64,000 nt of DNA, from NCBI RefSeq assembly GCF_963675165.1, contig NC_087388.1, positions 1,528,800 through 1,592,799 on the forward strand, in the 5' to 3' direction. The translations under genes were made by a program, and so were the position numbers. A model generated the notes under the pieces. It had not been told where the DNA came from. It saw only the letters and a list, made by a program, of their open reading frames with translations, and did not search any database. Numbering within the stretch: the first letter of the stretch is position 1; every line of letters begins with the position of its first letter. This DNA is from Halichondria panicea. Taxonomy: Eukaryota; Porifera; Demospongiae; Suberitida; Halichondriidae. This document shows, in pieces, positions 1-62,692 of this stretch.

Positions 1-722
1 GAATAATGTGGGAATCCACATTATTTCTCCAAAGCACAACATAGACCCCATGTCATCGCACAAGTAACATCAAACTATAGATAATGGCCACATGACTCTA
101 CATTAACACTATAAATACAAAAGGCCAAGGAGATATGATTAACCATCAGTAAATCCATCATGGCCACCAGGCCTACTACTATGATTCGTACTGACCTGTA
201 CTTCCAAAACCTGCCGATTATTATCGTAATTGTTAAAATGGTGCCTATAATGCGTGGTAGAAATAGAAATAGAGTAGATTCACATAATTATTCAAAATAA
301 CAAAAAAATAACATAAAAAAAATAACAAAAAAACCAACGTACTATAGCTACTATACTCGTGGCCGCCCACGTGCGCCTCGGGTAATAATCATATACATCC
401 ATGTACAGCTACTGTATTTACAACAGTAGTACAATCCTTTGATATCTGACCACAATGAGCAATAAATTATTTGGCGAGCATAATCACGATTTTAAAATTA
501 ACAATCATGCTAGCTGGGCATTATTGCTGTATGGCATTTATTGATGCATTACCAGGACTCTTTGGGCGGATTATACTAGCTCGCGATTCTCACCACTTTT
601 TTAGACTATATACCTGCTAATACAGTACTATAATAATATACTTAAAGGCTATAATAGTAACAATAGCACTATAGGCTTAAAATTTATATCTATATACTTT
701 ATTGTGTATAGTCACACAGAGA
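1..722. other. AT-rich 5' flank of paralog P1
   Basis: No gene is visible. A perfect 10-bp stem hairpin (aataatgtgg / ccacattatt, positions 2-25) sits at the very start and could be the edge of a small inverted-repeat element cut by the window. The last 120 bp are AT-rich and presumably hold the P1 promoter and 5' UTR, but no specific element can be supported. Confidence 0.5.
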
Positions 723-6700: not shown

Positions 6701-6831
6701 AGAGAGAGACAAGAGGAGCAGAGCCGACCAGACAAGCACTTGTCCTGCTACAGAAGTGGGCAGCCAGGGAGACGGCAACTTATGATCAGTTGAGAGAGAA
6801 ACTCCGTATACTCTCAGTGTTTCATATCTGA
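723..6831 (+). CDS. P1: ANK-Roc-COR-Death-Death protein, with premature stop in exon 2
   Basis: Likely cytoplasmic GTPase-switch signalling protein of the Roco superfamily (inference from domains). Exons: 723-6099, 6190-6465, 6551-6831; introns are 90 and 85 bp, GT-AG, phase 1. The start is placed at 723 (MADDSQS), conserved in the paralogs, rather than the in-frame ATG at 702. Order: three ANK repeats, a conserved ~65-residue non-ANK spacer, then roughly 30 ANK repeats in 102-residue triplets; P-loop GHAGAGKST near residue 1212; switch II DFAGDSEYYSSH near 1263; Roc-type G4 motif GSHAD near 1329; COR-like region about 1400-1750 with the W-x-x-G element; two Death-domain-like exons. Exon 2 contains TGA at 6360-6362 where P2, P3 and P4 have CGA (Arg). 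The spliced product would therefore be about 1849 residues, with half of Death domain 1 and none of Death domain 2. Downstream sequence remains open, so the mutation looks recent. Resembles DAPK1 without a kinase. Confidence 0.85.
6360..6362 (+). other. Premature TGA (CGA to TGA) in P1 exon 2
   Basis: The codon between Ile and Leu of the motif EEVI-R-LW is TGA in P1 and CGA in P2, P3 and P4. A C-to-T change at a CpG is the simplest explanation. Reading continues open after it to the exon 2 donor at 6466, and exon 3 is intact, so there is no further decay. Confidence 0.85.
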
Positions 6832-18334: not shown

Positions 18335-21300
18335 ATGGAAATGGCTGATGACAGCCAGTCATGTGACACTCCCCTACACACTGCTGCAAGCCGTGGGGAC
18401 TTAGATGAAGTCAGAAAGCTTTTGATAACAAAGCAATATGAAGTGGACACCAGAAACTCACACAACCAAACATCTCTTCATCTCGCATGTGCTAATGGTC
18501 ACCTCGATACGGTTTGGACACTAGCCAACGACTTTGGTGCTGACATAGGAGCTATTTATAATGGCAATACACCATTGCTTATTGCTGCTAAGAATAAACA
18601 TGTGCAAATAATTATCGTGTTGATCCTATTATCAATGCTTGGTAGACAAGTCATCAATGGAATAAGACTACCATGCTCCTTTAGCCACACTGAGCTTGAT
18701 TCTCATCATGTTAAAATCTTTGAGGATGTCCTCTTTGAGTATTACAATAATTCTAAAGCAGTGGATAAAACTATGCAAATGATCTCGAATTTTTTTCTTG
18801 ATCAATATAATGATGTAGGCTTCTTTGCATTGCTTGTAGCTGCATCACTTGGTCTCAAAGACTTGATTGATCGGTTAGTTGTAGAAAAGAAAGCAGACCT
18901 CAATATAAAGGGCTTCCGTGGCTTGTCTGTTCTCCACTGTGCCTGTTATGGAGGACATGTACTGCTCGTGGAGAGCCTTGCTTCAAAATATGGCCTCAAT
19001 CCCGCAGATAGAGATGATATAGGAAACACACCTCTACATATTGCAGCCATGAAAGGACACATAGAAACAGTTAGACATCTTATCAGCAAGCAAAGTTGTA
19101 AACTTGATGGTATTGATAATCAGAGTAATACACCATTGATGCTAGCTGCACTGACTGGTAATTCACATGTTTTGGATGCGTTAGTCAAAGAATTCAACAG
19201 CAGTTGTCATGTCCGAGGATACAAAGGTCGCACTCTCCTTCATCAAGCTTGCAATGGTGGTCATATAGAACTAATAGACAAACTGGTGATGGAACAGGGC
19301 CTCGATCTCGCAGATAGAGATGATAGTGGAGACACACCTCTACATATCGCATCCATGTCCGGACATGTTGAAGCAGTTAGACACCTGATCAGTAAACACA
19401 GTGCTGATATTGATTGCACTAATAAAAATAATAATACACCATTGATACTAGCTATGCTGAGTGGTCATACACATGTCTTGGATGCGTTCGTCAAAGAATT
19501 CAACAGCAGTTGTCATGTTCGAGGTTATAATGGATGCACTCTCCTACATTATGCATGCATTGGTGGTTATATAGAACTGATGAACAAACTGGTTATGGAA
19601 TATGGCCTTGATCCTGCAGATAGAGATGATGATGGAAACACACCTCTACATATTGCAGCCATGACAGGGCATGTTGAAATAGTGAGACACCTGATCATTA
19701 AGCACAGTGCTGATATTGATTGCACTAATAATAAAAGCAATACTCCACTGATGCTAGCTGCACTGAATGGTCATGCCCAGGTTTTGGATGCGTTTGTCAA
19801 CGAATTCAACAGTAGTTGTCATGTTCGAGGTTACAATGGTCGTACTCTTCTTCACCAAGCATGTGATCGTGGCCATGTAGAACTAATAGACACGCTGGTA
19901 ATGGAATATGGCCTTAATCCCGCAGATAGAGATGATGATGGAAACACACCTTTGCACATTGCATCCATATACGGACATGTTGAAGCAGTGAGACACCTGA
20001 TCAGTAGGCACAATGCTGATGTTGATTGCACTGATAATCGGAGTAATACACCATTGATGCTAGCTGCGCGGACTGGTAATTCACTTGTAATAGATGCATT
20101 AGTCAAAGAATTCAAAAGCAACCGGCATGTCCGAGGATACAATGGTCGAGCTCTCCTTCATAAAGCATGCTATGGTGGTCATATAGAACTGATAGACAAA
20201 CTGGTAAACGAATATGGTCTCAAGCTTGTAGATAGAGATAATGATGGAGACACACCTCTACATATTGCAGCCATGACAGGGCATGTTGAAACAGTGAGAC
20301 ACCTGATTAGTAAGCACAGTGCTGATATTGATTGCACTAATAATAAAAGCAATACTCCATTGATGCTAGCTGCACTGAATGGTCATGCCCAGGTTTTGGA
20401 TGCATTTGTCAACGAATTCAACAGTAGTTGTCATGTTCGAGGTTACAATGGTCGTACTCTTCTTCACCAAGCATGTGATCGTGGCCATGTAGAACTAATA
20501 GACACGCTGGTAATGGAATATGGCCTTAATCCCGCAGATAGAAATGGTAAAGGAAACACACCTCTACATATTGCAGCCATGAAAGGACATGTTGAAGCAG
20601 TGAGACACCTGATCAGTAAGCACAGCGCTGATATTGATAGTATTAATAATAAAAGCAATACTCCATTGATGCTAGCTGCACTGAATGGTCATGCCCATGT
20701 TTTGGTTGCGTTCTTTAAAGAATTTAATAGCAGTTGTCATGTCCGAAGTTACAACGGCTGTACTCTCCTTCACTATGCTTGCGAGGGTGGCCATATAGAA
20801 GTAATAGACATAATGGTAATGGAATATGGCCTCAATCCTGAAGATAGAAATAGTAAAGGAAACACACCTCTACATATTGCAGCCATGAAAGGACATGTTG
20901 AAGCAGTGAGACACCTGATCAGTAAGCACGGTGCTGATGTTGATTGCATTAATAAAACGAAGAGTACTCCATTGATGCTAGCTGTACTTAGTGGTCATGT
21001 CCATGTTTTGGATGCGTTAGTCAAAGAATTCAACAGCAGTTGTCATGTTCGAGGTTACAATGATCGGACTCTTCTTCACCAAGCATGTGATCGTGGCCAT
21101 ATAGAACTTATAGACAAACTGGTAATGAAATATGGCCTCAGTCCCGAAGATAGAAATTTTAAAGGAAACACACCTCTTCATATTGCAGCCTGTGAAGGAC
21201 GTGTTGAAACAGTGAAACACCTGATCAGAAATCACAAAGTTGAGACCAACATCACTAACAATAAGGACTCTACCCCATTGTGTTTAGCAGCTCAAGGTGG

Positions 21301-24300
21301 GCACCAGGTTGTGCTCCATGCCCTGATTGAAGAGTTCCATTGCAATCCACATGTCAGAGGCTACAATGGTCAAACTCTACTTCATTATGCTTGCAAAGAT
21401 GGCCACATAGAAACACTAAAAACTTTGAAATCAAAATATAAGGTGGATCCAACAATTAGAGACAACGATGGGAACACTCCTCTCCATATTTTGTGTCGTG
21501 CCCCGCATACTGAAGAAGAGAAGCTGAGATTAATCCTTTGCAAGTTTCAGTACTGGACAGTGTTTCAAGTTAACAATAATGGCAACACCCCTCTTCACAC
21601 AGCAACTCGATATGGGCAAGCTCGTTGTGCACGTGTACTATTGCAGAAATGCAATGCTCCACTTTTTGTGCGAAACAAAGATGGGAAGACAGCCTTTGAT
21701 TTAGCTAAAGCTCGGAAAAGTCAGGAAATTATCACTCTTTTCAAACATCATAATTCTGAAATCCAATCAACCTACCAGCAACTATACAAACTTGCTGAAC
21801 AAGATTTTGGTGGTGAAAAGTACCTCACAAGAATATTTGTTGTAGGTCATCCAGGTGCAGGGAAATCCACGCTTGTTGAAACTATCAAAAAAGAAGGTTT
21901 CTTTAGCTTCTTTAGCACATCAACTATAAAACTCCACACTGCGGGCATTGTTCCAAGTACTTACGACAGTAATGCTTACGGAAGAATGATACTCTACGAT
22001 TTTGCTGGTGATTTCGAGTACTACTCCTCACATGCTGCAATTATGGAGTCTATCGACACATCGAAAGGAAGTAATATTTATTTGATAATTTGTGATTTGA
22101 GTGAAGGTGAAAAAGAGGCTGCTACAAAATACAGCTACTGGCTTTCATTTCTATCATACAATATTAAGCAATTCTCACACACAGTTATTTTATTAGTGGG
22201 AAGCCATGCTGATGTCATTAAAAAACCGTCAGTTGAACACGCATTATCTGTGCTTGACAGTATATCACAAAAGTTCTGTAGCAACTACAAAATTAATGAT
22301 GCACATATAGAACGAAGTGTTGCTCTTGATTGTCGTAAACGAGGAGCTGTAGTGAATGACATAAAGAAACTCGCAAATAGATTCTCTAAATTTGTATCCC
22401 CCATTGGACTTTCCCCGGAGACAAGCACCCTATTGGGATTGTTGAAAAAAGACTTCGAACAAGTTTCAGCTTGCAAAGTAAGCCTTCTTATCTCTCACAT
22501 AGAAGAGACTGGAATTCCGCTGCCACTAAATTCTTTATCGCTATACACTCTCATAAGAGAGTTGCATGAGTTGGGTCTGCTAATGTTGATAGAGAGAGAA
22601 GGGGACTCCGTTGAGAACCACATAATCATTCTCAAGATATCAACATTCACGTCAGATGTACATAGTAAACTGTTTTCAAAGTCTGCTAAAGCGGATCTCA
22701 CCAAGCACATCGATCAACTCAAGCTCAGTGTAGGCATTATTCCAGAATCACTACTGGAGAGAGTACTGCCAGAGTACATCACAAAGGAAAGTCTACTTAA
22801 ACTGCAGTACTGTCAAGAAATTGAGAATTTGCACGTGGAAGAGGACCACACTCTTTCTCAACTCACTTCTGAGACAGTATTAACAGAGAATACCACTAAA
22901 GAGAAATCTCATCTATTTTTCCCTGCTCTATGTGATCTCAAGCTCGAGGAAATTCAATGGCCAAAATCCGAAGGTGATAAGATTACTTTGGGATGGTATG
23001 CTAAATGTGATGATGACGGATTCGACTTCTTCCCAACACGATTTCTTCATGTGCTTATCGTTCATCTCTCCCACAGCTTTGCGCTAAAACAAGATCTTCC
23101 AACAAGACACAGACTCTCTATAGAAACTGCACATTATGAATATTCTGCTCATAATAGTTCTTTGATTGCTGAGGTACATGCTGCCAATCGTCGTTGTCGT
23201 GTCTGGTCGACTGGTCTACATTGGCTTATGAAGAACGGAGTAGAGGTATTTGTCGATATGCCTAAAGATGCTAATAATAAAGAGCTTATTGTACTAGCAA
23301 GGAGTAAAGTTCAAAATCAAGTTGAATGTGCTAACACTCTGCGAGCAGTTATTCAAAAAACCGCCAATACAAAATTTGAATTCTGTGCTAGTATAGTGCC
23401 TACTGTTTACCTTCTTGATCCGAACAATCTCGAGGATGAAACTTTTACAAATGCTAGAAAAGCACCTAAGTATTCTCTTAGAGATATTGAAAAAGCTCTA
23501 GCAGAAGGCACTTTGCAAGTCACAGATAAAGATGGAGAATACTTTTCAACTCCAATCAGAGATTGGATCAGCCCAACAAGATTGGTTTCATCTTATTGGA
23601 GTAAGTCACATTCACACACATTAGTAGCGTAATTATAAGCGTAATTATTACTATAATTATACACATTATATTATGCAGATTTTGTTTTTCCAATGGATAC
23701 CTTCTTAGTTCACTCTGCTTTGCAAGGAGTACATGGTGCTAAATGGAAATTGCTAGGATTAAATCTTTCGATCTCTTGGACTGAATTAGATATCCTTGAA
23801 AACGAAGTATCTTTTCCTGGTGACATTGCTAAGAAAGAAGAAGTAATTCGACTGTGGATGTCTCAAGAACCCACCTGGATAGTGTTGGTAGACGCTCTCA
23901 GTCAACCTTCAATGGGATTGGCCAGTAAAGCAAGTCAAATCTCACAAGAATATAGTAAGTACACCTCACAATCATTATACCTCATTCCCAGGCCAAGTTT
24001 TCGCTTTTATGATGTTCACACATCCAATGTATAAGTTGGCCTGGGAACGAGGCTAAGCTATAAGCATATTGCTATTCATGTGTAAATTTTATATAGATGT
24101 GCCTCTACAAGAGAAAATCTTTTGCAAAAACAATTCATCCCTCCTTCCTGACGAGGATTTTCTCCAATTGTTTGCCGCCATCATTGCCTCTCGATGGCAG
24201 TGTCTTGCTTCTCCTCTCTCCCTCACTTCTGAAGACATTGTGAGCATTAAAAGAGAAGCAAGAGGAGCAGAGCCGATCAGACAAGCACTCGTTATGCTAC

Positions 24301-24380
24301 AGAAGTGGGCATCTAGGGAGACGGCAACTTATGGTCAGTTGAGAGAGAAACTCCGTACACTCTCAGTGTTTAATATCTGA
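18335..24380 (+). CDS. P2: intact ANK-Roc-COR-Death-Death protein
   Basis: Exons 18335-23600, 23679-23954 and 24097-24380 splice in phase 1 to a 1941-residue protein. Start MEMADDSQS; the second Met (18341) matches the P1 and P4 start and could be used instead. ANK repeats occupy about residues 10-1130, interrupted after the third repeat by the family spacer. Roc GTPase: P-loop GHPGAGKST near residue 1171, switch II DFAGDFEYYSSH near 1222, G4 GSHAD near 1287. COR-like region follows (LLGLLKKDFEQV..., then W-x-x-G-L-H-W). Exon 2 carries a Death-domain-like fold (W-K-L-L-G...LW-M-S-Q-E-P-T-W); exon 3 carries a second (R-W-Q-C-L-A...LQ-K-W). Roc-COR normally acts as a dimerising GTPase switch and Death domains nucleate signalling oligomers; the ANK solenoid would be the sensor (inference). 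Intron 2 contains a hairpin MITE. No lesions seen. Confidence 0.9.
23978..24055. mobile_element. Hairpin MITE in P2 intron 2
   Basis: The arms 'cctcattcccaggccaagtt' and 'aagttggcctgggaacgagg' are inverted, and the right end is CGAGGCTA as in the TAGCCTCG family. The left end has lost one G. The P3 intron 2 sequence 'cacaatcattagctata' shows the empty site. No clean 9-bp duplication remains. Confidence 0.65.
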
Positions 24381-28149: not shown

Positions 28150-29640
28150 GTGGAAGATGAACAAGGAACTTCCAATGTGCACAGTCTACTTCATCAGTGT
28201 GAAGACATTCTCGAAGTTGTTGTTTATGCCTCTGACTTGTTTCCAGCTGGGTGTGGAGATGCCATTGTTGATGCAGTAACAGAAGTGTATAAGTATATTG
28301 AAGTAAATTGCCTAAGAGATAGTCACAGAAGAGGGAGACCTTGTGTGAACGTGTCTGAGACTCAGTTGGAGCACCTTTTGTCGTTTCAGTGATTTTAGAG
28401 TTAGAGATATTGCACACGTGCTTCATGTATCTGAGAGCACTGTCAAGCGAAGAATAATACAGTTTGGATTTGAAAACAAATTACAGCGCACAGACATCTC
28501 CGAATCTGACTTGGATATTATTACTGCTGATTTTGTTCACCACTTTCCAAACAGTGGACAAAATACTTATGATGGTTATCTAAGAGGGAAAGGGATAAGA
28601 ATACAACGATATCGAGTAAGAGAGAGCCTTTCTCGTATTGATGAAACAGGAGTACAAAGACGTCTGAGACGAGCCTTACACCGCAGGAGATATAGTGTAC
28701 CTATGCCTAATAGCTTGTGGCACATAGATGGGCACCACAAATTAATACGCTGGAGAATAGTAGTGCATGGAGGCATTGATGGTTTTTCTCGATTACCAAT
28801 CTATTTAAAAGCGTCTACTAACAAAAAATCTGAGACTGTACTACAGTGTTTTTTGCACGCTGTTTCTTGTTATGGTTTACCTTCACGTGTGCGGTGTGAT
28901 AAAGGAGGCGAAAACGTTAAAGTCTCAGAATACATGCTTTCAAATCCTGAACGAGGTCCTGGTAGAGGTAGCTGTATTGTAGGGAAAAGTGTCCACAACC
29001 AACGGATCGAAAGATTGTGGAGAGACGTATTTGTTGGTTGTCTGTGTATGTTTTACCGGTTGTTCTATGCTCTCGAAGACAACAGTTTATTAGATCCTAC
29101 AGATGAAGTGGATATATTTGCATTACACTTCGTGTTTCTTCCACGTATTCAACAACAACTAAATGTTTTCCGCGAGAGCTATAGCCATCACAGATTGAGA
29201 ACTGAAGGCAATAGGACGCCATACCAGCTTTGGATAGAGGGAATGACCTCACTAACAACAGATGGAGCAGCATTACAAGGAGTATTGGATGATTCATCAA
29301 TTGTAAGTATTAGTGATGTGTTTACCTTCATTAGTTTACGAAGTCTGTGCATGTAGTACGATGTACAAAATGTATTTGAAACTGGTGGGTCAGAGTATAA
29401 GCATTGTGTTTAATTATTTCCTAACTATTATTACAGGGAGATTATGGAATAGATTGGAACGGCCTCCCTTGTATCGAGTCCCAAGATGGGGTTGCAGTCC
29501 CAAGCACTAATTGCCCACTGTCTGATGCACAGTTTAGTATGCTTAAAGAAGAGGTGAACCCACTTGCTGTTTGTGATGACTATGGCATATTGTTGTTTGG
29601 TCGCACCAAAGACTTAGTAGCTAGATGTCTGTCTATTTAG
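28150..29640 (+). CDS. IS3EU-like DDE transposase (integrase core), one apparent frameshift
   Basis: The N-terminal piece (28150-28390) ends in a basic GRPCVNVSE segment. The next piece contains a helix-turn-helix-like SESTVKRRI and the integrase core. The two are separated by a 1-nt frame change near 28384 where no intron fits. Catalytic D-D-E candidates: WHIDGHH (about 28729), RCDKGGEN (about 28907), NQRIERLW (about 29005). The usual core spacing is preserved. A 134-bp GT-AG intron (29303-29436) splits off a C-terminal exon ending at TAG 29638-29640, which has the DYGIDW segment I associate with related invertebrate elements. It would cut and join the ends of the element in the nucleus. The true 5' start is uncertain; an upstream exon near 28078 is possible. 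Confidence 0.8.
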
Positions 29641-36911: not shown

Positions 36912-39900
36912 ATGACTGATGACAGCCAGTCATGTAATACTCCCCTGCACACTGCTGCAAGCCGTGGGGACTTAGATGAGGTCAGAGAGCTGTTGAAAAC
37001 AAAGCAATATGAAGTCAACGTCAGAAACTCACACAACCAAACATCTCTTCATCTTGCATGTGCTAATGGTCATCTCGATACGGTTTGGACACTAGCCAAT
37101 GACTTTGGTGCTGACATAGGAGCTATTGATAATGATGGAAATACACCAATGCTTTTTGCTGCTAAGAACAAACATGTGCAAATAATTATAATGTTGCTTC
37201 TATTATCAATGTGTTGTAGACGCCTCTCCAACGGAGACTACGTGTCCTGCTCCTTTAGTCGTAGTGAAATGGATTCTGATCACACTAAAATGTTTGAGGA
37301 CGTCCTCTTTGAGTATTACAATGATTCTGAAGCTGTGGAGAAAACTATGCGTCTGATAAGCAAATACTTTGTTGATTATATTCAATTCAAGGATTATAAA
37401 GATGATGGCTTTATTGCATTGTTTGTAGCTGCATCACTCGGTCTCAAAGACTTGATTAATCGACTAGTTACACAGAATAAAGTAGACCTGAATATTAGGG
37501 GATTCCATGGCTTATCTGTTCTCCACTGTGCCTGTTTTGGAGGACAATTCCAGTTCATGGAGAATCTTATTTCAGAACATCTTATGGACCTTTCTGTTAA
37601 GGATACAGATGGGTACTCAGTTTTGCATTACGCAACTTTAAAGGGGACTCCCTATGCATGCAATGGTGGTCATATAGAACTGATAGACAAATTAGTGCTT
37701 GAATATGGCCTCAATCCCGCAGATAAAGATAATAATGGTAACACACCTCTACATACTGCAGCCGCTAAAGGACATGTTGAAACAGTGAGACACCTGATTA
37801 GCAAGCACAGTGCTGATACTGATTGCACTAATAATCAGAACAGTACTCCATTGATGCTAGCTGTGTTTAATGGTTGTGTGCATGTTTTGGATATGCTAAT
37901 CAAAGAATTCAACAGCAGTTGTCATGTCCGAGGTTACAATGGTTATACTCTCCTTCACTATGCATGCAATGGTTGTCATATAGAACTGATAGACAAATTA
38001 GTGCTTGAATATGGCCTCAATCCCGCAGATAAAGATAATGATGGTAACACACCTCTACATATTGCAGCCTCCTTTAAAGGACGTGTTGAAACAGTGAGAC
38101 ACCTGATTAGCAAGCACAGTGCTGATATTGATTGCACTAATAATCAGAACAATACTCCATTGAATCTAGCTGTGTGGACTGGTCGTGTGCATGTTTTGGA
38201 TATGCTAATCAAAGAATTCAACAGCAGTTGTCATGTCCGAGGTTACAATGGTTATACTCTACTTCACCAAGCATGTGAAGGTGGTCATATAGAACTGATA
38301 GACAAATTAGTGCTTGAATATGGCCTCAATCCCGCAGATAAAGATAATAATGGTAACACACCTCTACATACTGCAGCCGCTAAAGGACATGTTGAAACAG
38401 TGAGACACCTGATTAGCAAGCACAGTGCTGATGTTGATTGCACTAATAATCAGAACGATACTCCATTGATGCTAGCTGTGTTTAATGGTTGTGTGCATGT
38501 TTTGGATATGCTAATCAAAGAATTCAACAGCAGTTGTCATGTCCGAGGTGACAATGGTTTTACTCTTCTTCACTATGCATGCAATGGTGGTCATATAGAA
38601 ATGATAGACAAGTTAGTGCTTGAATATGGCCTCAATCCCGCAGATAAAGATAATGATGGTAACACACCTCTACATATTGCAGCCATTAAAGGACATGTTG
38701 AAACAGTGAGACACCTGATTAGCAAGCACAGTGCTGATGTTGATTGCACTAATAATCAGACTGATACTCCATTGATGCTAGCTGTGTTTAATGGTTGTGT
38801 GCATGTTTTGGATATGCTAATCAAAGAATTCAACAGCAGTTGTCATGTCCGAGGTGACAATGGTTATACTCTCCTTCACTATGCATGCAATGGTGGTCAT
38901 ATAGAAATGATAGACAAATTAGTGCTTGAATATGGCCTCAATCCTGCAGATAAAGATAATGATGGTAACACACCTCTACATATTGCAGCCATTGAAGGAC
39001 ATGTTGAAACAGTGAGACACCTGATTAGCAAGCACAGTGCTGATATTGATTGCACTAACAACTACAACAATACACCATTGATGGGTGCTGCGCTGAATGG
39101 TCGTGTGCATGTTTTGGATATGCTAATCAAAAAATTCAACAGCAGTTGTCATGTCCGAGATTACTACGGTTCTACTCTCCTTCACTATGCATGCAATGGT
39201 GGTCATATAGAACTGATAGACAAATTAGTGCTTGAATATGGCCTCGATCTCGCAGATAAAGGTAATGATGGTAACACACCTCTACATATTGCAACCATGA
39301 GAGGACATGTTGAAACAGTGAGACACCTGATTAGCAAGCACAGTGCTGATGTTGATTGCACTAATAATCAGAACGCTACTCCATTGATGGAAGCTGTTCG
39401 GAAGGGTCGTGTGCATGTTTTGAATATGCTAATCAAAGAATTCAACAGCAGTTGTCATGTCCGAGGATACAACGGTCGTACTCTCCTTCACCAAGCATGC
39501 GATGGTGGTCATATAGAACTGATAGACAAATTAGTGCTTGAATATGGCCTCAATCCCGCAGATAAAGATAATAATGGTAACACACCTCTACATACTGCAG
39601 CCGCTAAAGGACATGTTGAAACAGTGAGACACCTGATTAGCAAGCACAGTGCTGATACTGATTGCACTAATAATCAGAACAGTACTCCATTGATGCTAGC
39701 TGTGTTTAATGGTTGTGTGCATGTTTTGGATATGCTAATCAAAGAATTCAACAGCAGTTGTCATGTCCGAGGTTACAATGGTTATACTCTCCTTCACTAT
39801 GCATGCAATGGTTGTCATATAGAACTGATAGACAAATTAGTGCTTGAATATGGCCTCAATCCCGCAGATAAAGATAATGATGGTAACACACCTCTACATA

Positions 39901-42900
39901 TTGCAGCCTCCTTTAAAGGACGTGTTGAAACAGTGAGACACCTGATTAGCAAGCACAGTGCTGATATTGATTGCACTAATAATCAGAACAATACTCCATT
40001 GAATCTAGCTGTGTGGACTGGTCGTGTGCATGTTTTGGATATGCTAATCAAAGAATTCAACAGCAGTTGTCATGTCCGAGGTTACAATGGTTATACTCTA
40101 CTTCACCAAGCATGTGAAGGTGGTCATATAGAACTGATAGACAAATTAGTGCTTGAATATGGCCTCAATCCCGCAGATAAAGATAATAATGGTAACACAC
40201 CTCTACATACTGCAGCCGCTAAAGGACATGTTGAAACAGTGAGACACCTGATTAGCAAGCACAGTGCTGATGTTGATTGCACTAATAATCAGAACGATAC
40301 TCCATTGATGCTAGCTGTGTTTAATGGTTGTGTGCATGTTTTGGATATGCTAATCAAAGAATTCAACAGCAGTTGTCATGTCCGAGGTGACAATGGTTTT
40401 ACTCTTCTTCACTATGCATGCAATGGTGGTCATATAGAAATGATAGACAAGTTAGTGCTTGAATATGGCCTCAATCCCGCAGATAAAGATAATGATGGTA
40501 ACACACCTCTACATATTGCAGCCATTAAAGGACATGTTGAAACAGTGAGACACCTGATTAGCAAGCACAGTGCTGATGTTGATTGCACTAATAATCAGAC
40601 TGATACTCCATTGATGCTAGCTGTGTTTAATGGTTGTGTGCATGTTTTGGATATGGTAATCAAAGAATTCAACAGCAGTTGTCATGTCCTAGGTGACAAT
40701 GGTTATACTCTCCTTCACTATGCATGCAATGGTGGTCATATAGAAATGATAGACAAATTAGTGCTTGAATATGGCCTCAATCCTGCAGATAAAGATAATG
40801 ATGGTAACACACCTCTACATATTGCAGCCATTGAAGGACATGTTGAAACAGTGAGACACCTGATTAGCAAGCACAGTGCTGATATTGATTGCACTAACAA
40901 CTACAACAATACACCATTGATGGGTGCTGCGCTGAATGGTCGTGTGCATGTTTTGGATATGCTAATCAAAGAATTCAACAGCAGTTGTCATGTCCGAGAT
41001 TACTACGGTTCTACTCTCCTTCACTATGCATGCAATGGTGGTCATATAGAACTGATAGACAAATTAGTGCTTGAATATGGCCTCGATCTCGCAGATAAAG
41101 GTAATGATGGTAACACACCTCTACATATTGCAACCATGAGAGGACATGTTGAAACAGTGAGACACCTGATTAGCAAGCACAGTGCTGATGTTGATTGCAC
41201 TAATAATCAGAACGCTACTCCATTGATGGAAGCTGTTCGGAAGGGTCGTGTGCATGTTTTGGATATGCTAATCAAAGAATTCAACAGCAGTTGTCATGTC
41301 CGAGGATACAACGGTCGTACTCTCCTTCACCAAGCATGCGATGGTGATCATATAGAACTGATAGACAAATTAGTGCTTGAATATGGCCTCAATCTCGCAG
41401 ATAAAGATAATGACGGTAACACACCTCTACATGTTGCAGCCATTAAAGGACATGTTGAAACAGTAAGACTTTTGATTACTCAACACAAAATTGATATTAA
41501 TATCACTAATAATGTTTACTCTACCCCATTGTGTTTAGCAGCTGAAGGTGGTCATGAGATCGTGATTCATGCCTTTAGTAAAGAGTTTAAATGCAGCCCA
41601 CATAACAGAGGCTACAATGGTCAAACTCTGCTTCACTATGCTTTCCAAAATGGTCACGTAGAACTATTGTATAAACTGGTAGCTCAATATAAGGTGGATC
41701 CAACAATTAGAGACAATGATGGGAACACACCTCTACATCTTTTGTGTCCTACACCGCATACTGAAGACATGCTAAGAACAATCCTTTTCAAGTACCAGTA
41801 CTGGACAGTGTTTCAAGTTAATAATAAAGGTAACACCCCTCTTCACACAGCAACTCTATATGGGCAAGCTCATTGTGCACGTTTACTATTGCAGAAGTAT
41901 GAAGCTCCACTTTTTGTGCGAAATACAGATGGGAAGACAGCCCTTGATTTAGCTAAACTTCAGAGAAAACAAGAAATTGTTACAATTTATGAAAATCATA
42001 CTTCCAAACTCCAGTTAACCTATGAGCAACTAGACGAACTTGCTAAACAAGAGTTTACTGGTGAAAAGAACCTCACCAGAATATTTGTTGTAGGGCATCC
42101 AGGTGCAGGGAAATCCACGCTTGTTGAGACTATCAAAAAGAAAGGTTTCTTCAGCTACTTCAGCACGTCAACTGTTGCCCCTCACACTGCAGGCATTATT
42201 CCAAGTACTTATGACAGTAGTTATTATGGAAGAATGATACTCTATGATTTTGCTGGTGATTCCGAGTACTACTCCTCACATGCTGCAATTATGGAGTCAA
42301 TCAACACATCAAAAGGAAGTAATATATATTTGATAGTTTGTGATTTGAGTAAAGGCGAAGAAGCTGCTGCCACTAAATACAGCTACTGGCTTTCATTTCT
42401 ATCATACAATATTAAGCAATTCTCAAACATGATTATCCTACCAGTGGGAAGCCACGCTGATGTAATCAACAAAACATCAGTTGAACAAGTGTTACGTGTT
42501 CTTGACAGCGTATCCCAAAAGTTCTGTAGCAGCTCTAAGATTGATGGCTTTCAAATTGAACAAAGTGTTTCTCTTGATTCTCGTAAACGAGGGACTGTAG
42601 TAAATGACATAAAAGAACTCACTAAGAAATTTTCCAATTTGGTATCCCTTTCCCCAGAGACAAGCACACTCTTGGGATTGTTGAAGAAAGACTTTGAACA
42701 TGTTCCAGCTTGCAAAGTAAGCCTCCTTATCTCTCACATAGAAGAGACGGGAATTCCGCTGCGACTAAATTCTTCATTACTATACACTCTCATAAGAGAG
42801 TTACATGATTTGGGTCTGCTAATGGTGATAGAGAGAGAAGGGGACTCCATTGAGAACCATATAATAATTCTCAAGATATCAACATTCACATCAAATGTAC

Positions 42901-44503
42901 ACAAAAAACTCTTTTCAGAGTCTGCTAAAGCTGACCTCACAGAGCACATTCATCAACTCAAGTTTAGCGTAGGTATTATTCCAGAATCACTACTGGAGAG
43001 AGTACTGCCAGAGTACATCACAAAAGAAAGTCTACTGCAGTTGCAGTACTGTCACGAAATTGAAAATTTGCACGTGGAAAAGGACCACACTCTTTCTCAA
43101 CTCACTTTAGAACCTGTACCAACAGATAGTGCCACTAAAGAGAAATCTCATTTATTTTTCCCTGCTCTGTGTGATCTCAAGCTTGAGGACATTCAATGGC
43201 CTAAATCCAAAGGTGATAAGATTACTTTGGGATGGTATGCTAAATGTGATGGTGACAGATTCGACTTCTTCCCAACACGATTTCTTCATGTGCTTATCGT
43301 TCACCTCTCTCACAACTTTGCATTAAAACAAAACCTTCCAACAAGACACAGACTCTCACCTACAGCTTCCAATTCTTTGATTGCTGAGGTACATGCTGCC
43401 AATCCTAGCTGTCATGTCTGGTCGACTGGTCTGCATTGGCTTATGAAGAATGGAGTGGAAGTATTTGTCGATATGCCTAAAGAAGCTGATAGTAAAGAAC
43501 TGGTTGTACTAGCAAAGAGTGACGTCCGAAATCAAGCCAAGTGTTCTGAAACTCTGCATCAAGTTATTCAAAAGGTAGTGGAAACAAAAGTTGAATTCTG
43601 TGCTAGTATAGTGCCTACTGTTTACCTTCTTGATCCGAGTAACCTCAAGGATGAACCTTTTACGAATGCTTTGAGTTCATCTAAATACGCTCTTAGTGAT
43701 ATCGAAGAAGCACTAGCAGAAGGCACTGAGGAAGTTGCCGATAAAGACAGGCAATGCTTCTCCACTCCGATCAAAGAATGGATTAGCCCAACAAGATGGG
43801 CCATATCTTACTGGAGTAAGTTTCACACACACATATACACGCGTAATTAATTAATTTGTTTGTTATTGTACTACAGATTTGTTTTTTCCAATGAATACCT
43901 TCTTGGTTCATTCTGCTTTGCAAGAAGTAAAGGATGCTCAATGGAAACTGCTAGGAATGAGTCTTCCGATCCCCTGGAACAAATTAGATGACATTGAGAA
44001 TAATAACTCATCATACCCTGGTGACATTGCTAAGAAAGAAGAAGTAATTCGACTATGGATGTCTCAAGAACCCACCTGGATAGTGTTGGTAGATGCTCTC
44101 AATCAATCTGCATATGAATGGTCACAGAATTCAAGTCAAATCTCACAAAAGCATAGTAAGTACCTCACAATCATTAGCTATATTAATTGCTTATTCATGT
44201 GTGCATTATATAATAATTATAGATGTGCCTCTACAAAAGAAAATTCTCGAAAAAGATTCATCTCTCCGTCCTGACGAGGACTTTCTCCAATCATTTGCTG
44301 CCGTCATTGGCTCTCGTTGGCAGTGTCTTGCTTTTCCCCTCTCCCTCACTTCTGAAGACATTGTGAGCGTTAAGAGAGAGACAAGAGGAGCAGAGCCTAC
44401 CAGACAAGCACTCGTCATGCTGCAGAAGTGGGCAGCCAGGGAGACGGCAATTTATGGTCAGTTGAGAGAGAGACTCCGTACACTCTCAGTGTTTAATATC
44501 TGA
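36912..44503 (+). CDS. P3: longest ANK-Roc-COR-Death-Death protein, with duplicated ANK block
   Basis: Exons 36912-43815, 43877-44155 and 44223-44503 (introns 61 and 67 bp, GT-AG, phase 1) give 2487 residues with no lesion. Start MTDDSQS corresponds to MADDSQS of the paralogs. ANK repeats reach about residue 1690, roughly 47 repeats after allowing for the N-terminal spacer. The excess over P1 and P2 comes from a tandem duplication of 613 residues. Roc: GHPGAGKST near 1728, DFAGDSEYYSSH near 1779, G4 GSHAD. COR-like region, then Death domain 1 (exon 2; PWNKLDDIE, EEVIRLWMSQEPTW) and Death domain 2 (exon 3; SRWQCLAF, LQKWAARETA). Predicted role as for P2: solenoid sensor, GTPase switch, Death-domain output. 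Roc lacks the Gln often found after DxxG and has Asp there. Confidence 0.9.
37663..41340 (+). repeat. 1839-bp tandem duplication inside P3
   Basis: 37663-39501 and 39502-41340 are near-identical; by eye only a handful of substitutions separate them (for example L to V near 40654, R to L at 40690 in VRG/VLG, K to E in IK(K/E)F, N to D in VL(N/D)M). The period is 613 codons, six 102-residue ANK triplets plus one residue (the extra F in AASFKG). It keeps reading frame. Confidence 0.9.
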
Positions 44504-55264: not shown

Positions 55265-58195
55265 ATGGCTGATGACAGCCAGTCAAGTGATACTCTCCTG
55301 CACACTGCTGCAAGCTGTGGGGACTTAGATGAGGTCAAAGAGCTGTTGAAAACGAAGCAATATGAAGTGGACGTCAGAAACTCACACAACCAAACATCTC
55401 TTCATCTTGCATGTGCTAATGGTCATCTCGATACGGTTTGGACACTAGTCAATGACTTTGGTGCTGACATAGGAGCTTCTGATTATGGCAGAAATACACC
55501 ATTGCTTATTTCTGCCAAGAACAAGCGTGTGCAAATAATTATCATGTTGATCCTATTATCACTGTATGGAAACAACAACTGTTTCTTTAGTTACAGTGAG
55601 ATGGATTCTCATGACGTTAAAATCTTTGAGGATGTCCTCTTCGAGTATTATAATGATTCTGAGGCTGTGGAGAAAACTATGCATCTGATAGGCAAATACT
55701 TTGTTGATGACATTCGATTCAAGGATTATAAAGATGATGGCTTTATTACATTGTTTGTAGCTGCATCACTTGGTCTCAAAGACTTGCTTAACCGTTTAGT
55801 TACAGAGAAAAAAACAGACCTAAATAAAAAAGGGTTCTATGGCTTGTCTGTTCTCCACGGTGCCTGTGTTGGAGGACACGTACTGCTCACAGAGAACCTT
55901 ATTTCAGAACATGGTATGGACCTTTCACAGAAAGATAACAGCGGGTATTCAATTTTGCAATACGCTGCATCAATTGGGATTCCCTATTCATTCAATGGTG
56001 GTCATATAGAACTGATAGATAAACTGGTATTGGAATATGGCCTCGATATTGGAGATAGAGATAAACATGGAGACACACCTCTACATATGGCAGCCTACGA
56101 AGGACGTGTTGAAACAGTGAGACACCTGATCAGTAAGTACAGTGCTGATGTTGAATGCACTAATAATCAGAACAATACACCATTGATGCTAGCTGCACTG
56201 AATGGTAATTCAGATGTTTTGGATGCGTTAGTCAAAGAATTCAACAGTAGTTGTCATGTTCGAGGATACAATCGTCGTACACTCCTTCACTACGCATGCC
56301 AGGGTGGCCATATAGAACTAATAGATAAATTGGTGACGGAATATGGCCTCGATTCTACAGATAGAGATGATGATGGATGCACACCTCTACATATTGCAGC
56401 CACGTCCGGACGTGTTGAAGCAGTGAGACACCTGATCATTAAGCACAGTGCTGATGTTGAATGCACTAATAACCAAAACAGTACACCATTGATGCTAGCT
56501 GCACTGAATGGTAATTCAGATGTTTTGGATGCGTTAGTCAAAGAATTCAACAGTAGTTGTCATGTTCGAGGATACAATCGTCGTACACTCCTTCACTATG
56601 CATGCAAGGGTGGCCATATAGAACTGATTGATAAACTGGTGCTGGAATATGGCCTCGATTCTACAGATAGAGATGATGATGGAAACACACCTCTACATAT
56701 TGCAGCATTGTACGGACATGTTGAAACAGTGAGACACCTGCTCAGTAAGTACAGTGCTGATGTTGATTGCACCAGTAAGCAAAACAGTACACCATTGATG
56801 CTAGCTGCACTGAATGGTAATTCAGATGTTTTGGATGCGTTAGTCAAAGAATTCAACAGCAGTTGTCATGTTCGAGGTTACAAAGGTCGTATTCCCCTCC
56901 ATTACGCATGTCATGGTGGTCACATAGAACTGGTAGACAAACTGGTGACAGAATATGGCCTCAATGTCGGAATTAGAGATAATGATGGTGACACACCTCT
57001 ACATATTGCAGCCATGCAAGGACATGTTGAAACAGTGAGACGCCTGATCAGTAAGCACAGTGCTGATGTTGATTGTTCTAATAATCAGAACGCTACTCCA
57101 TTGATGCTAGCTGTACTGCACAAACATGTGACTGTTTTGGATGTGCTAGTCAAAGAATTCAACAGCAGTTTTCATGTCCGAGATCACAATGGTCAAACTC
57201 TCCTTCACTATGTATGCAATGGTGGTCATATTGAAATGATAGACAAACTGGTGTTGGAATTTGGCCTCGATCTCAAAGATAGAGACAGTAAAGGAAACAC
57301 ACCTCTACATATTGCAGCCTGGTTCGGTCATGTTGAAGTAGTGAGACACCTGATCAGTAAGCATAGTGCTGAAATTGATTGCACTAATAACGAGAACAAT
57401 ACTCCATTAATGATAGCTGCACTGAGGGATCATCCCCATGTTTTGGATACGTTAGTCAAAGAATTCAATAGCAATCGTCATGTCCGATACCAAGGTTATA
57501 CTCTCCTTCACTCTTCGTGCAGGCGTGGCCATATAAAACTGATAGACAAACTGGTAATTAAATATGGCCTCAATGTCAGAGATAGAGATAATGATGGAAA
57601 CACACCTCTACATATTGCAGCCATGAAAGGACATGTTGAAACAGTGATACTTCTGATTAAGAAGTACGGCGCTGATATCGATTCCATTAATAATAAGAAT
57701 AATACACCATTGATGCTAGCTGCGCAGACTGGTAATACAGGTGTTGTGGATGCGTTAGTCAAACAAATTGAAAGCAGTTGTAAAGTCCGAGGATATAATG
57801 GTCGCACTCTCCTTCATCAAGCATGTTATCGTGGTCATATAGAACTGATAGACAAACTGGTGATGGACTATGGCCATGATCCCTCAGATAGAGATGATAA
57901 TGGAGACACACCTCTACATATTGCAGCTTCTAGAGGTCATGTTAACACAGTGCAGCACCTGATTATTAAGCACAGTGCTGATATTCATTGCACTAACAAT
58001 AGCAACAACACTCCATTGGAGATAGCTATACTCAATGATCATGTGCTTGTTTTGGATGCGTTAGTCAAAAAATTCAACGAAAGTCATCATGTCCGAGTCC
58101 GAGGTTGTACTGTTCTTCACTATGCATGCGATCGTGGCCATATAAAACTGATAGACAAACTGATGATGGAATATCATCTTAAGCTCACAGATTAG
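55265..58195 (+). CDS. P4 N-terminal half: ANK solenoid, truncated by insertion
   Basis: Start MADDSQS as in P1. 976 codons of ANK repeats (about 27) including the N-terminal spacer, closing at an in-frame TAG (58193-58195) that is the first codon of an inserted sequence. The interrupted motif LTD continues as RDSDGNTPLH at 59596, in the same frame. As read, P4 can make an ANK-only protein of 976 residues unless the insertion is spliced out. I found no GT-AG pair that would restore frame. The ANK framework and variable positions are as in the other paralogs. Confidence 0.85.
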   Translation: MADDSQSSDTLLHTAASCGDLDEVKELLKTKQYEVDVRNSHNQTSLHLACANGHLDTVWTLVNDFGADIGASDYGRNTPLLISAKNKRVQIIIMLILLSLYGNNNCFFSYSEMDSHDVKIFEDVLFEYYNDSEAVEKTMHLIGKYFVDDIRFKDYKDDGFITLFVAASLGLKDLLNRLVTEKKTDLNKKGFYGLSVLHGACVGGHVLLTENLISEHGMDLSQKDNSGYSILQYAASIGIPYSFNGGHIELIDKLVLEYGLDIGDRDKHGDTPLHMAAYEGRVETVRHLISKYSADVECTNNQNNTPLMLAALNGNSDVLDALVKEFNSSCHVRGYNRRTLLHYACQGGHIELIDKLVTEYGLDSTDRDDDGCTPLHIAATSGRVEAVRHLIIKHSADVECTNNQNSTPLMLAALNGNSDVLDALVKEFNSSCHVRGYNRRTLLHYACKGGHIELIDKLVLEYGLDSTDRDDDGNTPLHIAALYGHVETVRHLLSKYSADVDCTSKQNSTPLMLAALNGNSDVLDALVKEFNSSCHVRGYKGRIPLHYACHGGHIELVDKLVTEYGLNVGIRDNDGDTPLHIAAMQGHVETVRRLISKHSADVDCSNNQNATPLMLAVLHKHVTVLDVLVKEFNSSFHVRDHNGQTLLHYVCNGGHIEMIDKLVLEFGLDLKDRDSKGNTPLHIAAWFGHVEVVRHLISKHSAEIDCTNNENNTPLMIAALRDHPHVLDTLVKEFNSNRHVRYQGYTLLHSSCRRGHIKLIDKLVIKYGLNVRDRDNDGNTPLHIAAMKGHVETVILLIKKYGADIDSINNKNNTPLMLAAQTGNTGVVDALVKQIESSCKVRGYNGRTLLHQACYRGHIELIDKLVMDYGHDPSDRDDNGDTPLHIAASRGHVNTVQHLIIKHSADIHCTNNSNNTPLEIAILNDHVLVLDALVKKFNESHHVRVRGCTVLHYACDRGHIKLIDKLMMEYHLKLTD

Positions 58196-59595: not shown

Positions 59596-62500
59596 AGAGA
59601 TAGTGATGGAAACACACCTCTACACATTGCAGCCATTAAAGGACATGTTGAAACAGTGAGACACTTGATTATTCAGCACAAAGTTGAAACCAATATCACT
59701 AACAATAAGAACTCTACCCCATTGTGTTTAGCAGCTAAAGGTGGGCACCAGGTTGTGCTTCATGCTCTGATTGAAGAGTTCCATTGCAGTCCACATATCA
59801 GAGGCTACAATGGTCGAACTCTGCTTCACTATGCTTGCAAATATGGCCATATAGAAACTTTAAACATTTTAATATCAAAATATAAGGTGGATTCAACAAT
59901 TAGAGACAACAATGGGAACACACCTCTGCATATTTTCTGTCATGTACCTCATACTGAAGAAGAGAAGCTGAGAACAATCCTTTGCGAGTACCAGTACTGG
60001 ACAGTGTTTCAAGTTAATAATAATGGTAACACCCCTCTTCACACAGCAACTCTATATGAACAAACTTATTGTGCACGCTTACTATTACAGAAATACAATG
60101 CTCCACTTTTTGTGCGAAACAAGGATGGGAAGACCGCCCTTGATTTAGCGAAAGCTCAGAAAAGCCACGAAATTGTTACAGTTTTCAAAAATTATAATTC
60201 CGAAATCCAATCAATCTATCGGCAACTAAACAAACTTTCTCAGCGAGCGTTTAGTGGTGAGAAAAATCTCACCAGAATATTTGTTGTAGGTCATCCAGGT
60301 GCAGGGAAATCCACGCTTGTTGAAACTCTCAAAACAGAAGGTTTGATCAGCTACTTCAGCACATCAACTGTTGCCCCCCACACTGCAGGCATTGTTCCGA
60401 GTACTTATGACAGTAGTGTTTATGGAAGAATGATACTCTATGATTTTGCTGGTGATTCCGAGTACTACTCCTCACATGCTGCAATTATGGAGTCAATCAA
60501 CACATCGAAAGGAAGTAATATCTATTTGATAATTTGTGATTTGAGTAAAGGTAAAGAAGCTGCTGATACGAAATACAGGTATTGGCTTTCATTTCTATCC
60601 TACAATATTAAGCAATTCTCAAACACAGTTATTTTACCAGTGGGAAGCCATGCTGATGTCATTAAAAAAGCATCAGTGGAAGAAGTATTATATAAACTGG
60701 ACAGTACATCACAACATTTCTGTAGCAGTTCCAAGATCGATCATTTTAACATCGAACAAAGTGTTGCTCTTGATTGTCGTAAACGAGGAGCTGTAGTAAA
60801 CGATATAAAGAAACTTACTAAGAGATTCTCTGAATCAGTATCCCCCATTGGACTTTCCCCTGAGACAAGCACTCTCTTGGGATTGTTGAAGAAAGACTTT
60901 GAACATGTCCCAGCTTGCAAAGTAAGCCTCCTTATCTCTCACATTGAAGAGACTGGAATTCCGCTGCCACTAAATTCTTCATCACTATACACTCTCATAA
61001 GAGAGTTACATGATTTGGGTCTACTAATGGTGATAGAGAGAGAAGGGGATTCCATTGAGAGCCACATAATCATTCTCAAGATATCAACATTCACATCGGA
61101 TGTACACAAAAAACTTTTTTCAGAGTCTGCTAAAGCTGACCTCACCAAGCACATCGATCAACTCAAGTTCAGCGTAGGCATTATTCCAGAATCACTACTG
61201 GAGAGAGTACTGCCAGAGTACATCACAAAAGAAAGTCTACTTAAACTGCAGTACTGTCAAGAAATCGAGAATTTGAACGTGGAAGAGGACCACAATGTTT
61301 CTCAACTCACTTCGGGGCCAGTACCAACAGAAAGTACCACTAAAGAGAAATCTTATTTATTTTTCCCTGCTCTATGTGATCTCAAACTCGAGGAAATTCA
61401 ATGGCCTAAATCCGAATTTGATAGGGTAACTTTGGGATGGTATGCTAAATGTGATGCTGACAGCTTTGACTTCTTTCCAACACGATTTCTTCATGTGCTT
61501 ATTGTTCACCTCTCTCACAACTTTGCACTAAAACAAAGCTTGCCCACAAGCTCCACTACAGCTTCCGATTCTTTGATTGCTGAAATACATGCTGCCAATC
61601 CTAGCTGTCGTGTCTGGTCGACTGGTCTTCATTGGCTTATGAAGAACGGAGTTGAGGTATTTGTCGATATGCCTAAAGATGGTGATAGTAAAGAATTGAT
61701 TGTACTAGCAAGAAGTGACGTCCGAAATCAAGCCAAATGTTCCAACACTCTGCAACTAGTTATTCAAAAGGTAGTAGAAGCAAAAATGGAGTTCTGTGCT
61801 AGTATAGTGCCAACTGTTTACCTTCTTGATCCGAACGACCTCAAGGACAAACCTTTTACGAATGCTATAAATTCACCTAAATACGCTCTCAGAGATATCG
61901 AAGAAGCACTAGCAGAAGGCACTGAGGAAGTTGCCGATAAAGACAGACATTGCTTCTCCACTCCAATCAAAGATTGGATCAGCCCAACAAGATGGGCCAT
62001 ATCTTACTGGAGTAAGTTTCACGCACACATTATACCCACACACTTAATTTATTCGTTTGTTATTGTACTACAGATCTGTTTTTTCCAATGGATACCTTCT
62101 TGGTCCTTTCTGCTTTGCAAGAAGTAAAGGATGCTCAATGGAAACTGCTAGGAATGAGTCTTCCAACCCCCTGGAACAAATTAGATGACATTGAGAATAA
62201 TGACTCATCGTTCCCAGGTAATAATGCTAAGAAAGAAGAAGTAATTCGACTATGGATGTCTCAAGAACCAACCTGGATAGTGTTGGTAGAGGCTCTCAGT
62301 CAATCTGCATATGGATGGTCACAGAATTCTAGTCAAATCTCACAACAGCACAGTAAGTATCTCACAATCATTGGCTATAATGCCCTGCTTATTCATGCAT
62401 GCATTTTATAGATGTGCCTCTACAAAAGAAAATTCTCGAAAATGATTCATCTCTTCGTCCTGACAAGGACTTTCTCCAATCGTGTGCTGCCGTCATTGGC

Positions 62501-62692
62501 TCTCGTTGGCAGTGTCTTGGTTTTCCCCTCTCCCTCACTTCTGAAGACATTGTAAGCATCAAGAGAGAGACAAGAGGAACAGAGCCGACCAGACAAGCAC
62601 TCGTCATGCTACAGAAATGGGCAGCCAGGGAAACGGCAACTTTTGGTCAGTTGAGAGAGAAACTTCGTACACTCTCAGTGTTTCATATCTGA
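59596..62692 (+). CDS. P4 C-terminal half: last ANKs, Roc-COR, two Death domains
   Basis: Open from 59596 in the frame of the N-terminal half; first internal Met is at 59656. Exons 59596-62011, 62074-62352 and 62412-62692, GT-AG, phase 1, together 991 residues. Contains about six ANK repeats, P-loop GHPGAGKST at about 60289, DFAGDSEYYSSH, G4 GSHAD, COR-like region, Death domain 1 (EEVIRLWMSQEPTW) and Death domain 2 (SRWQCLGF, LQKWAARETA). No other lesion, so either the insertion is very recent, or this half is still expressed from an internal promoter, or splicing is non-canonical. Orphaned from its start codon, it is otherwise as intact as P2. Confidence 0.85.

Follow-up and report, generated by a model that had tools for sequence, protein, structure and literature searches.

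The 64,000-nt stretch of the Halichondria panicea genome analysed here (the window; C12:1528800-1592799 of a 131.5-Mb genome, positions being counted from the window start) contains four paralogous genes, P1 to P4, in which long arrays of ankyrin (ANK) repeats are followed by a Roc GTPase domain, a predicted COR region and Death-type exons. We consider it likely that P1-P4 encode intracellular ANK-Roc-COR-Death receptors of a tandem family whose ankyrin groove is diversifying; the receptors would bind a ligand and serve an immune role. Among closely related repeat modules of this family, residues on the concave, ligand-binding face of the ankyrins have changed much faster than expected under neutrality, while the Roc-COR part of the same genes is conserved.

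Repeat modules and their variable positions

The ankyrin repeats that a first-pass annotation had placed at 37640-41460 proved to be a genuine array. All of them sit within a single stop-free open reading frame (ORF) of P3, where Tandem Repeats Finder (TRF) detected a 306-bp period in frame with the coding sequence (Table 1). Each 102-residue module consists of three 34-residue ankyrins, A, B and C, with consensus sequences like D..G.TPLHIAA..GHVETVRHLISKHSADIDCT for type A, NN...TPLMLAV..GHVHVLD.LVKEFNSSCHVR for type B and G..G.TLLH.AC.GGHIELIDKLV.EYGL.PAD. for type C. The residue triplets quoted in that annotation are present in P1-P4, MRG, WRG, WTG, LYR and MAG corresponding to positions 13-15 of type A and YNG, HHG, RDG and WNG to positions 2-4 of type C.

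A genome search with the P3 Roc domain returned 137 matches, 32 of them near-full-length at an identity of at least 79%, including the window's four. Thirty of these 32 lie on C12, within ∼1.05 Mb (1.03-2.08 Mb), and two on C6. We analysed 29 close genes, omitting the copies at C12:1081061, 1213587 and 1502154. Together with four more distant genes (L029-L032) they yielded 1,378 parsed ankyrin units, and the ABCABC order was mostly held in the 29 close genes, with gaps and one-residue shifts, three of L029-L032 being less regular. After the 131 units of L029-L032, 84 units with scores under 60 and 101 with another spacing had been set aside, the entropy set comprised 371 A, 347 B and 344 C units (260, 250 and 220 distinct, respectively). 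Before both the entropy and the selection analyses, the register was corrected in 53 A units that carry a one-residue insertion.

According to solved structures, the concave ligand-binding face of ankyrins is formed by positions 1, 2, 3, 8, 11, 12, 32 and 33, which are enriched in ligand contacts (PMC8415598); mapped by the conserved motif, these correspond to 3, 4, 5, 10, 13, 14, 1 and 2 in the numbering used here. Entropy was uneven over the repeat. At positions 2, 3, 5, 13 and 14 it averaged 2.00 (A), 1.90 (B) and 2.24 (C) bits, compared to 0.34, 0.63 and 0.66 bits in the buried core (permutation P = 6e-5, 0.006 and 4e-4), and when position 10, which is also part of the varied face, was included the means were 1.80, 1.89 and 2.09 bits. 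As many as 16 different residues occurred at position 13. Convex and basal positions showed intermediate values (for example, 1.44 for convex positions in B and 1.34 for basal positions in C). Before re-registering, the amino acid difference rate of the contact set was reached by random five-codon sets in 0 (A), 5 (B) and 1 (C) of 400 draws. Thus, the proposal that changes cluster at ligand-contact positions holds for 2, 3, 5, 13 and 14 but needs amending, since position 10 is varied as well, position 14 of type C is nearly invariant among close pairs and type B also varies on its convex side.

The cap ankyrins at the N terminus lack this hypervariability (0.49 and 0.16 bits at concave positions versus 0.36 and 0.15 elsewhere) and the last C repeat is flat (0.71 versus 0.67), with higher concave values in the last B repeat (1.46 versus 0.94) and the C-terminal A repeat (0.84 versus 0.46). 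Entropy alone is not diagnostic, because high diversity on the concave face is common to ankyrins, whose concave positions are among the most diverse in an alignment of 7,404 sequences (PMC8415598). The entropy pattern is therefore ordinary for ankyrins; the contrast in substitution rates described below is not.

Selection for change on the concave face

We built a minimum spanning tree over distinct modules and counted single-base codon changes on its short edges, which approximate recent history. The module set consisted of 305 clean modules (268 distinct) from 28 genes, L012 having no clean module. The ratio of nonsynonymous (N) to synonymous (S) rates, omega, was taken against the synonymous rate of all codons, with a kappa (transition/transversion ratio) of 7.64 and a neutral N:S of 2.33. 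Over 132 edges of 1-10 differences, concave positions 2, 3, 5, 10, 13 and 14 had accumulated 187 N and 10 S changes, in addition to 39 multi-base codons (P = 2.5e-18), giving an omega of 5.60 (4.07-7.75). The corresponding values for the other classes were 1.28 (0.92-1.78) for core, 1.44 (1.03-2.00) for convex and 1.43 (0.98-2.08) for basal positions. On 60 older edges of 11-25 differences, concave omega was 2.10, and core, convex and basal omegas were 0.39, 0.67 and 0.93; on the 53 edges of 1-3 differences the four values were 4.19, 1.27, 1.70 and 1.65.

The concave excess was stable to the choices made in the analysis. With a kappa of 2, edges of 1-10 differences gave a concave omega of 4.15 and 0.98-1.11 for the other classes. 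Dropping one gene at a time kept it between 5.0 and 5.94, leaving out the six P3-like genes gave 4.77, trees restricted to within-gene comparisons (109 edges) gave 4.85, and the six concave positions reached 4.78 on ungapped units before re-registering. A neutral birth-and-mutation simulation run through the same code (8 replicates) returned class means of 1.00-1.06, with a maximum of 1.37. The Roc-COR part had an omega of 0.40 among 27 genes, leaving out L004, which is cut, L026 and L029-L032, and of 0.42 on its seven closest edges. Concave codons accounted for 10 of the 85 synonymous changes, which corresponds to 0.70 times the average synonymous rate.

From the omegas of the Roc-COR part, the concave face and the framework we conclude that the genes are constrained, that the groove has been selected for change and that framework changes are purged only with time. 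The first-pass suggestion of a diversifying binding surface is thus borne out at the level of sequence evolution, and neither of the outcomes named there as refuting it, an even spread of entropy or a dN/dS well below 1 at the variable positions, was observed. The accompanying description of a nearly fixed framework is only partly correct: core entropy is low, but in the closest pairs the N:S of the framework is approximately neutral, so that its uniformity reflects youth and homogenisation and not a frozen sequence.

Array turnover, the GTPase part and the gene family

For 52% of 1,039 units (score ≥80) the nearest unit lay in the same gene, compared to 4.7% by chance, and 8 of the 268 distinct modules were found in more than one gene. 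The 305 modules carried 224 concave haplotypes, 15 of them common to several genes. DNA identity between units of the same type averaged 0.880 within genes and 0.799 between genes; the former exceeds the 85% used to define high-identity repeats of the fungal type, although neighbouring modules in P2 (0.794), L023 (0.824) and L024_L025 (0.816) fall below it. The fraction of site pairs with all four gametes rose, among the six P3-like genes, from 0.35 at distances below 50 bases to ∼0.7 at 125-224 bases, few pairs lying farther apart; for all 268 modules together it climbed from 0.46 to 0.61. This rise with distance is what recombination predicts, and recombination is supported.

P3 itself illustrates this turnover. 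The span first annotated contains few distinct units (A 7/13, B 9/12, C 7/12) because 37676-39612 recurs at 39515-41451, and about half of it is a recent duplication. Nine codons differ between the two copies, all nine by nonsynonymous changes. Six are non-concave (B23, B34, B26, B21, C15 and C31) and scattered over 38817-39556. The remaining three, A3, A10 and A13, are concave and all fall inside the last 40 bases, where homology between the copies may have ended.

Downstream of the array, P3 has conserved last ankyrins, Roc and COR, followed by what read as introns and two Death-type exons. The Roc domain carries the motif GHPGAGKST, a putative GTP-binding P-loop, and scored 28.1 bits with the Pfam Roc model when the C-terminal piece was scanned alone (cut-off 27) and 25.6 bits, below the cut-off, in the whole protein. 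The Pfam scan of P3 gave no COR match. A structural model of the Roc-COR region matched known RocCOR structures over ∼600 columns with TM-scores to the query of 0.44-0.50, which indicates that a COR region directly follows Roc, as in ROCO proteins. The confidence of the model was moderate (mean pLDDT, predicted local distance difference test, 65.1), and therefore only its matches to RocCOR structures were used. The P3 Death exon had no significant match among Protein Data Bank (PDB) sequences (best E-value 0.53). By analogy with P1, the final residues of the P3 ORF probably run into an intron.

Table 1. Features of the P1-P4 genes in the window
Feature	Position	Strand	Evidence
P1 paralogous ANK-Roc-COR ORF	702-6362	+	array 1632-3736; putative splice sites read at 6100/6190 and 6466/6551
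P1 Death exon	6551 to stop 6829-6831	+	Death 33.5 bits
P2 paralogous ANK-Roc-COR ORF	18335-23632	+	array 18987-21236; Death exon match 24096-24377
P3 first exon/ORF: N-terminal ankyrin caps, ABC array, conserved last repeats, Roc, COR	36912-43850	+	2,312-aa ORF; Pfam Ank_2, E 9.1e-285
P3 array of 306-bp modules (ankyrin types A, B and C, 34 aa each)	37652-41469	+	TRF period 306, 12.5 copies, 92% matches; unit parsing
P3 recent tandem duplication, first copy, ∼six modules	37676-39612	+	12 differences in 1,937 bases at a shift of 1,839
P3 recent tandem duplication, second copy	39515-41451	+	12 differences in 1,937 bases versus 37676-39612
P3 Roc GTPase domain	42075-42644	+	Pfam Roc; phmmer to LRRK2 Roc chains such as 6xaf, E 5.6e-7; genome C12:1570874-1571443
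P3 COR-like region	42645-43847	+	Roc-COR model matches LRRK1 8e05, LRRK2 8fo9 and bacterial RocCOR 3dpu, E 1e-19 to 2e-17
P3 second exon, weak Death-like domain (ends approximate)	43879-44157	+	Pfam Death 19.1 bits, cut-off 22.6
P3 third exon, Death domain (5′ end approximate)	44222-44500	+	Pfam Death 28.1 bits, cut-off 22.6
P4 ANK part of paralogous gene	55265-58195	+	array 55980-58174; frame stops within array
P4 last ankyrins, Roc and COR	59656-62127	+	Death exon match 62411-62689

Death exons were found no more than 5 kb downstream of 26 of the 29 plus-strand Roc exons on C12, a count based on 38 of 79 Death matches and on 29 Roc positions, one of which is stop-split (C12:1051045). For the two minus-strand Roc exons on C12 and the two on C6, Death matches occur ∼2.2 kb downstream. 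The regular pairing of Roc and Death exons strengthens the idea, raised in the first-pass annotation, that the repeats may belong to a recognition system. In P1, the splice sites listed in Table 1 would join the ORF to its Death exon.

Several observations concern individual members of the family. L005, L007 and L018 (C12:1169623, 1233063 and 1613810) share a differing first-exon end, ...KEESSYWSKY, together with the lack of a Death exon inside 5 kb, and are possibly a subfamily with another output. The number of clean modules per gene ranges from 3 to 34. L021 and L022 (C12 ∼1680900-1694750) form one open frame of 4,555 aa, the longest in the cluster, in which 110 ankyrin units were parsed; its 34 clean ABC modules carry just 17 concave haplotypes, so that the groove would be very long and partly repetitive. 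On C5 and C7 (L033 and L034) there are arrays of many weaker Roc matches, most open frames being ∼740-800 aa, and two of these frames, inspected by eye, look like ANK-Roc-COR with few ankyrins. Behind P3, 45361-47308 is a partial copy of the 3′ half only, with stop-split COR pieces and an open Death exon (28.9 bits), and further worn Death-exon copies are scattered through the C12 cluster. Between P2 and P3 lies an integrase-core ORF at 28418-29356 (Pfam rva_4, 280.7 bits), probably a mobile element.

In DAPK1, ankyrins are followed by Roc, COR and then Death, and the genes described here share this order. Although they combine ankyrins, Roc-COR and Death in one gene, membership of the DAPK family was rejected: that family has an N-terminal protein kinase, and the Pfam scan of the P1-P4 ORFs revealed no kinase family, separate upstream exons not having been searched. 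These genes also differ from DAPK1 and other animal ROCO proteins in their very long, homogenised and diversifying arrays and in their dozens of mostly tandem copies. Membership of the NOD-like receptors (NLRs) and STAND proteins was rejected too: Roc is present, and the same scan detected no NACHT or NB-ARC domain, AAA_16 appearing only far under its cut-off.

Alternative explanations and comparison with known systems

Several results weigh against the interpretation of P1-P4 as intact receptors with a positively selected groove. Three of the 29 plus-strand Roc exons on C12 have no Death exon inside 5 kb, and the second exon of P3 scores below the Pfam Death cut-off (19.1 versus 22.6 bits). 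P1 has an in-frame TGA at 6360-6362 in its second exon, upstream of the Death exon, where its P3 counterpart is open, and may be a truncated or decaying copy; P4 looks interrupted, its frame ending within the array at 58195 and opening again ∼1.4 kb on, at 59656. The variability is not purely concave, since type B also varies at convex positions 16-18 and 22 in the pooled set. Omega is lower when fewer genes are used. On edges of up to 25 differences, P3 by itself gives 12 N to 1 S and an omega of 2.53 (7 edges), and the four genes of the window give 22 N to 5 S and 2.34 (10 edges). When all pairs within genes were compared, contact pN/pS (nonsynonymous over synonymous differences per site) was 0.92 (A), 0.73 (B) and 1.30 (C), not clearly above 1, with framework pN/pS of 0.66, 0.52 and 0.47 and contact pN over framework pS of 1.36, 1.05 and 1.16. 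Because comparing all pairs lumps old with young divergence and resolves multi-base codons by paths, we relied on the spanning-tree edges; the signal thus stands out best in changes of recent origin. On the youngest edges framework omega is ∼1.3-1.7, so that some of the latest change seems to have escaped constraint, as would be the case in relaxed or partly decaying copies. Finally, recombining repeats violate the tree assumption behind any omega.

Could the pattern arise without selection on the groove? If concave residues were simply the least constrained and drifted, their diversity in general ankyrin alignments (PMC8415598) would make the entropy pattern expected; yet relaxed constraint allows an omega up to 1, not 5.6, and the 187:10 ratio departs strongly from the neutral 2.33:1. 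Moreover, concave positions show little variation in the cap ankyrins that these genes encode. With omega well above 1 and a synonymous rate at or below average, drift is strongly disfavoured and we regard it as highly improbable. Local hypermutation or directed mutation of contact codons would account for near-identical units that differ in these codons and for the 23-43% of amino acid changes there that are multi-base in close pairs. Such a process would raise the synonymous rate, which is not raised at concave codons, and in the P3 duplication most of the differing codons are non-concave, the concave ones falling where homology may lapse; this is the least probable of the explanations considered. 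An omega inflated by gene conversion or recombination among paralogues, or by pseudogene decay, finds some footing in the evident recombination, the several broken copies and the near-neutral or slightly higher framework omega of the youngest edges. Conversion, though, carries synonymous and nonsynonymous variants alike, decay predicts an omega of ∼1 everywhere rather than a conserved Roc-COR part and a concave face far above the rest, and the intervals and gene jackknife are stable, which leaves this explanation improbable.

A different question is what the groove is for. The same receptor layout might owe its diversity to partner-specific scaffolding, gamete recognition or allorecognition, or symbiont sorting, and selection for change says nothing about the ligand; fungal repeats of this kind include allorecognition (heterokaryon incompatibility) genes (PMC4986451, PMC12222747). 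The Death domains, together with at least 213 SRCR and at least 102 NACHT matches in the genome (the NACHT search also matching 11 of 14 control genomes, 3 of them over the cut-off), point instead to immunity, with which allorecognition is still compatible; such a combination of domains also suggests a sponge. We give a non-defence role a sizeable minority chance.

The reading that we favour, a family of diversifying intracellular receptors, can be summarised as (ankyrin caps)-(ABC ankyrin modules)n-Roc-COR-Death-type exons. Sensing would be done by the ankyrin groove with its strongly diversified concave residues, and the remainder of the repeat would preserve the solenoid. Arrays would expand, contract and swap modules by tandem duplication and recombination, within genes and more rarely between them; these processes would homogenise the framework while selection retains groove-altering changes. 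Binding of a ligand, perhaps microbial, viral or otherwise non-self, would flip the Roc-COR GTPase switch, and the switched Roc-COR would expose or cluster the C-terminal Death domains, leading to cell death or an inflammatory-type signal. A further-reaching version, which we think unlikely, is an anticipatory-type animal repertoire, in which dozens of ANK-Roc-COR-Death genes with readily reshuffled arrays form a combinatorial store of grooves, perhaps varying between individuals or somatic cells.

The pattern itself is already known from the ankyrins of fungal NLRs, whose repeats are described as conserved, polymorphic in number and positively selected on the concave side (PMC4986451); what appears to be new is its animal ANK-Roc-COR-Death version. 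In a literature search by titles and abstract openings, with few subscription journals covered, no paper on a diversifying groove in ANK-Roc-COR-Death genes of animals came up. Fungal NLRs with high-identity ANK, TPR or WD repeats, such as Podospora Pa_3_8560 and the HNWD genes, are reported to share near-identical tandem repeats, concave ANK selection, changes in repeat number, possible concerted evolution and the joining of an NTP switch to a signalling domain (PMC4986451). They differ in that the switch here is Roc-COR, not NACHT or NB-ARC, the output Death-type exons at the C terminus and the module a 102-aa unit of three ankyrins, in an animal genome and in one large tandem cluster. In addition, Podospora shows polymorphism between individuals, whereas the family described here is known from the paralogues of one assembly. 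The proposed succession of groove, switch and output would thus mirror NLR logic with other parts.

Among ROCO genes, those of brown algae with leucine-rich repeats (LRRs) are described as expanded and exon-shuffled, with repeats under diversifying selection, and have been proposed as immune receptors (PMC11378527). The expansion of a ROCO GTPase and the shuffled, diversifying repeats are common to both families, but the algal genes have LRRs with one repeat per exon, alternative splicing and a mostly dispersed arrangement, while here the ANK array lies in one ORF. The same source reports at least 17 ROCOs in Trichoplax, some with death domains. In sponges, the NLR expansion of Dysidea avara likewise concerns a large intracellular receptor family, some members having Death domains, although those are NACHT-LRR genes and not ANK-Roc-COR, and the main text nowhere uses the word ankyrin (PMC12909245). 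An animal survey of TRADD-N and Death-like domains describes a strong expansion in the sponge Amphimedon with ankyrins among the commonest partners, and suggests that such repeats might directly recognise invaders (PMC8195603).

If our interpretation is correct, the fungal NLR strategy, in which the repeat is copied, the scaffold kept and the groove varied, would have arisen separately in an animal, on Roc-COR and with a Death output. This would open a tractable question in sponge immunity, namely which ligands the grooves bind and whether arrays differ between individuals. Designed ankyrin repeat proteins (DARPins) are varied at positions 2, 3, 5, 13 and 14, and the modules described here resemble them in combining a fixed framework with variation at these very positions. 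Unlike DARPins, they are natural, diversify at position 10 too, alternate three frameworks and reach up to 34 clean modules per gene. In DARPins, defined surface positions are randomised by design (PMC8683736); the sponge arrays would be natural ankyrin libraries whose varied positions nearly match the engineers' choices.

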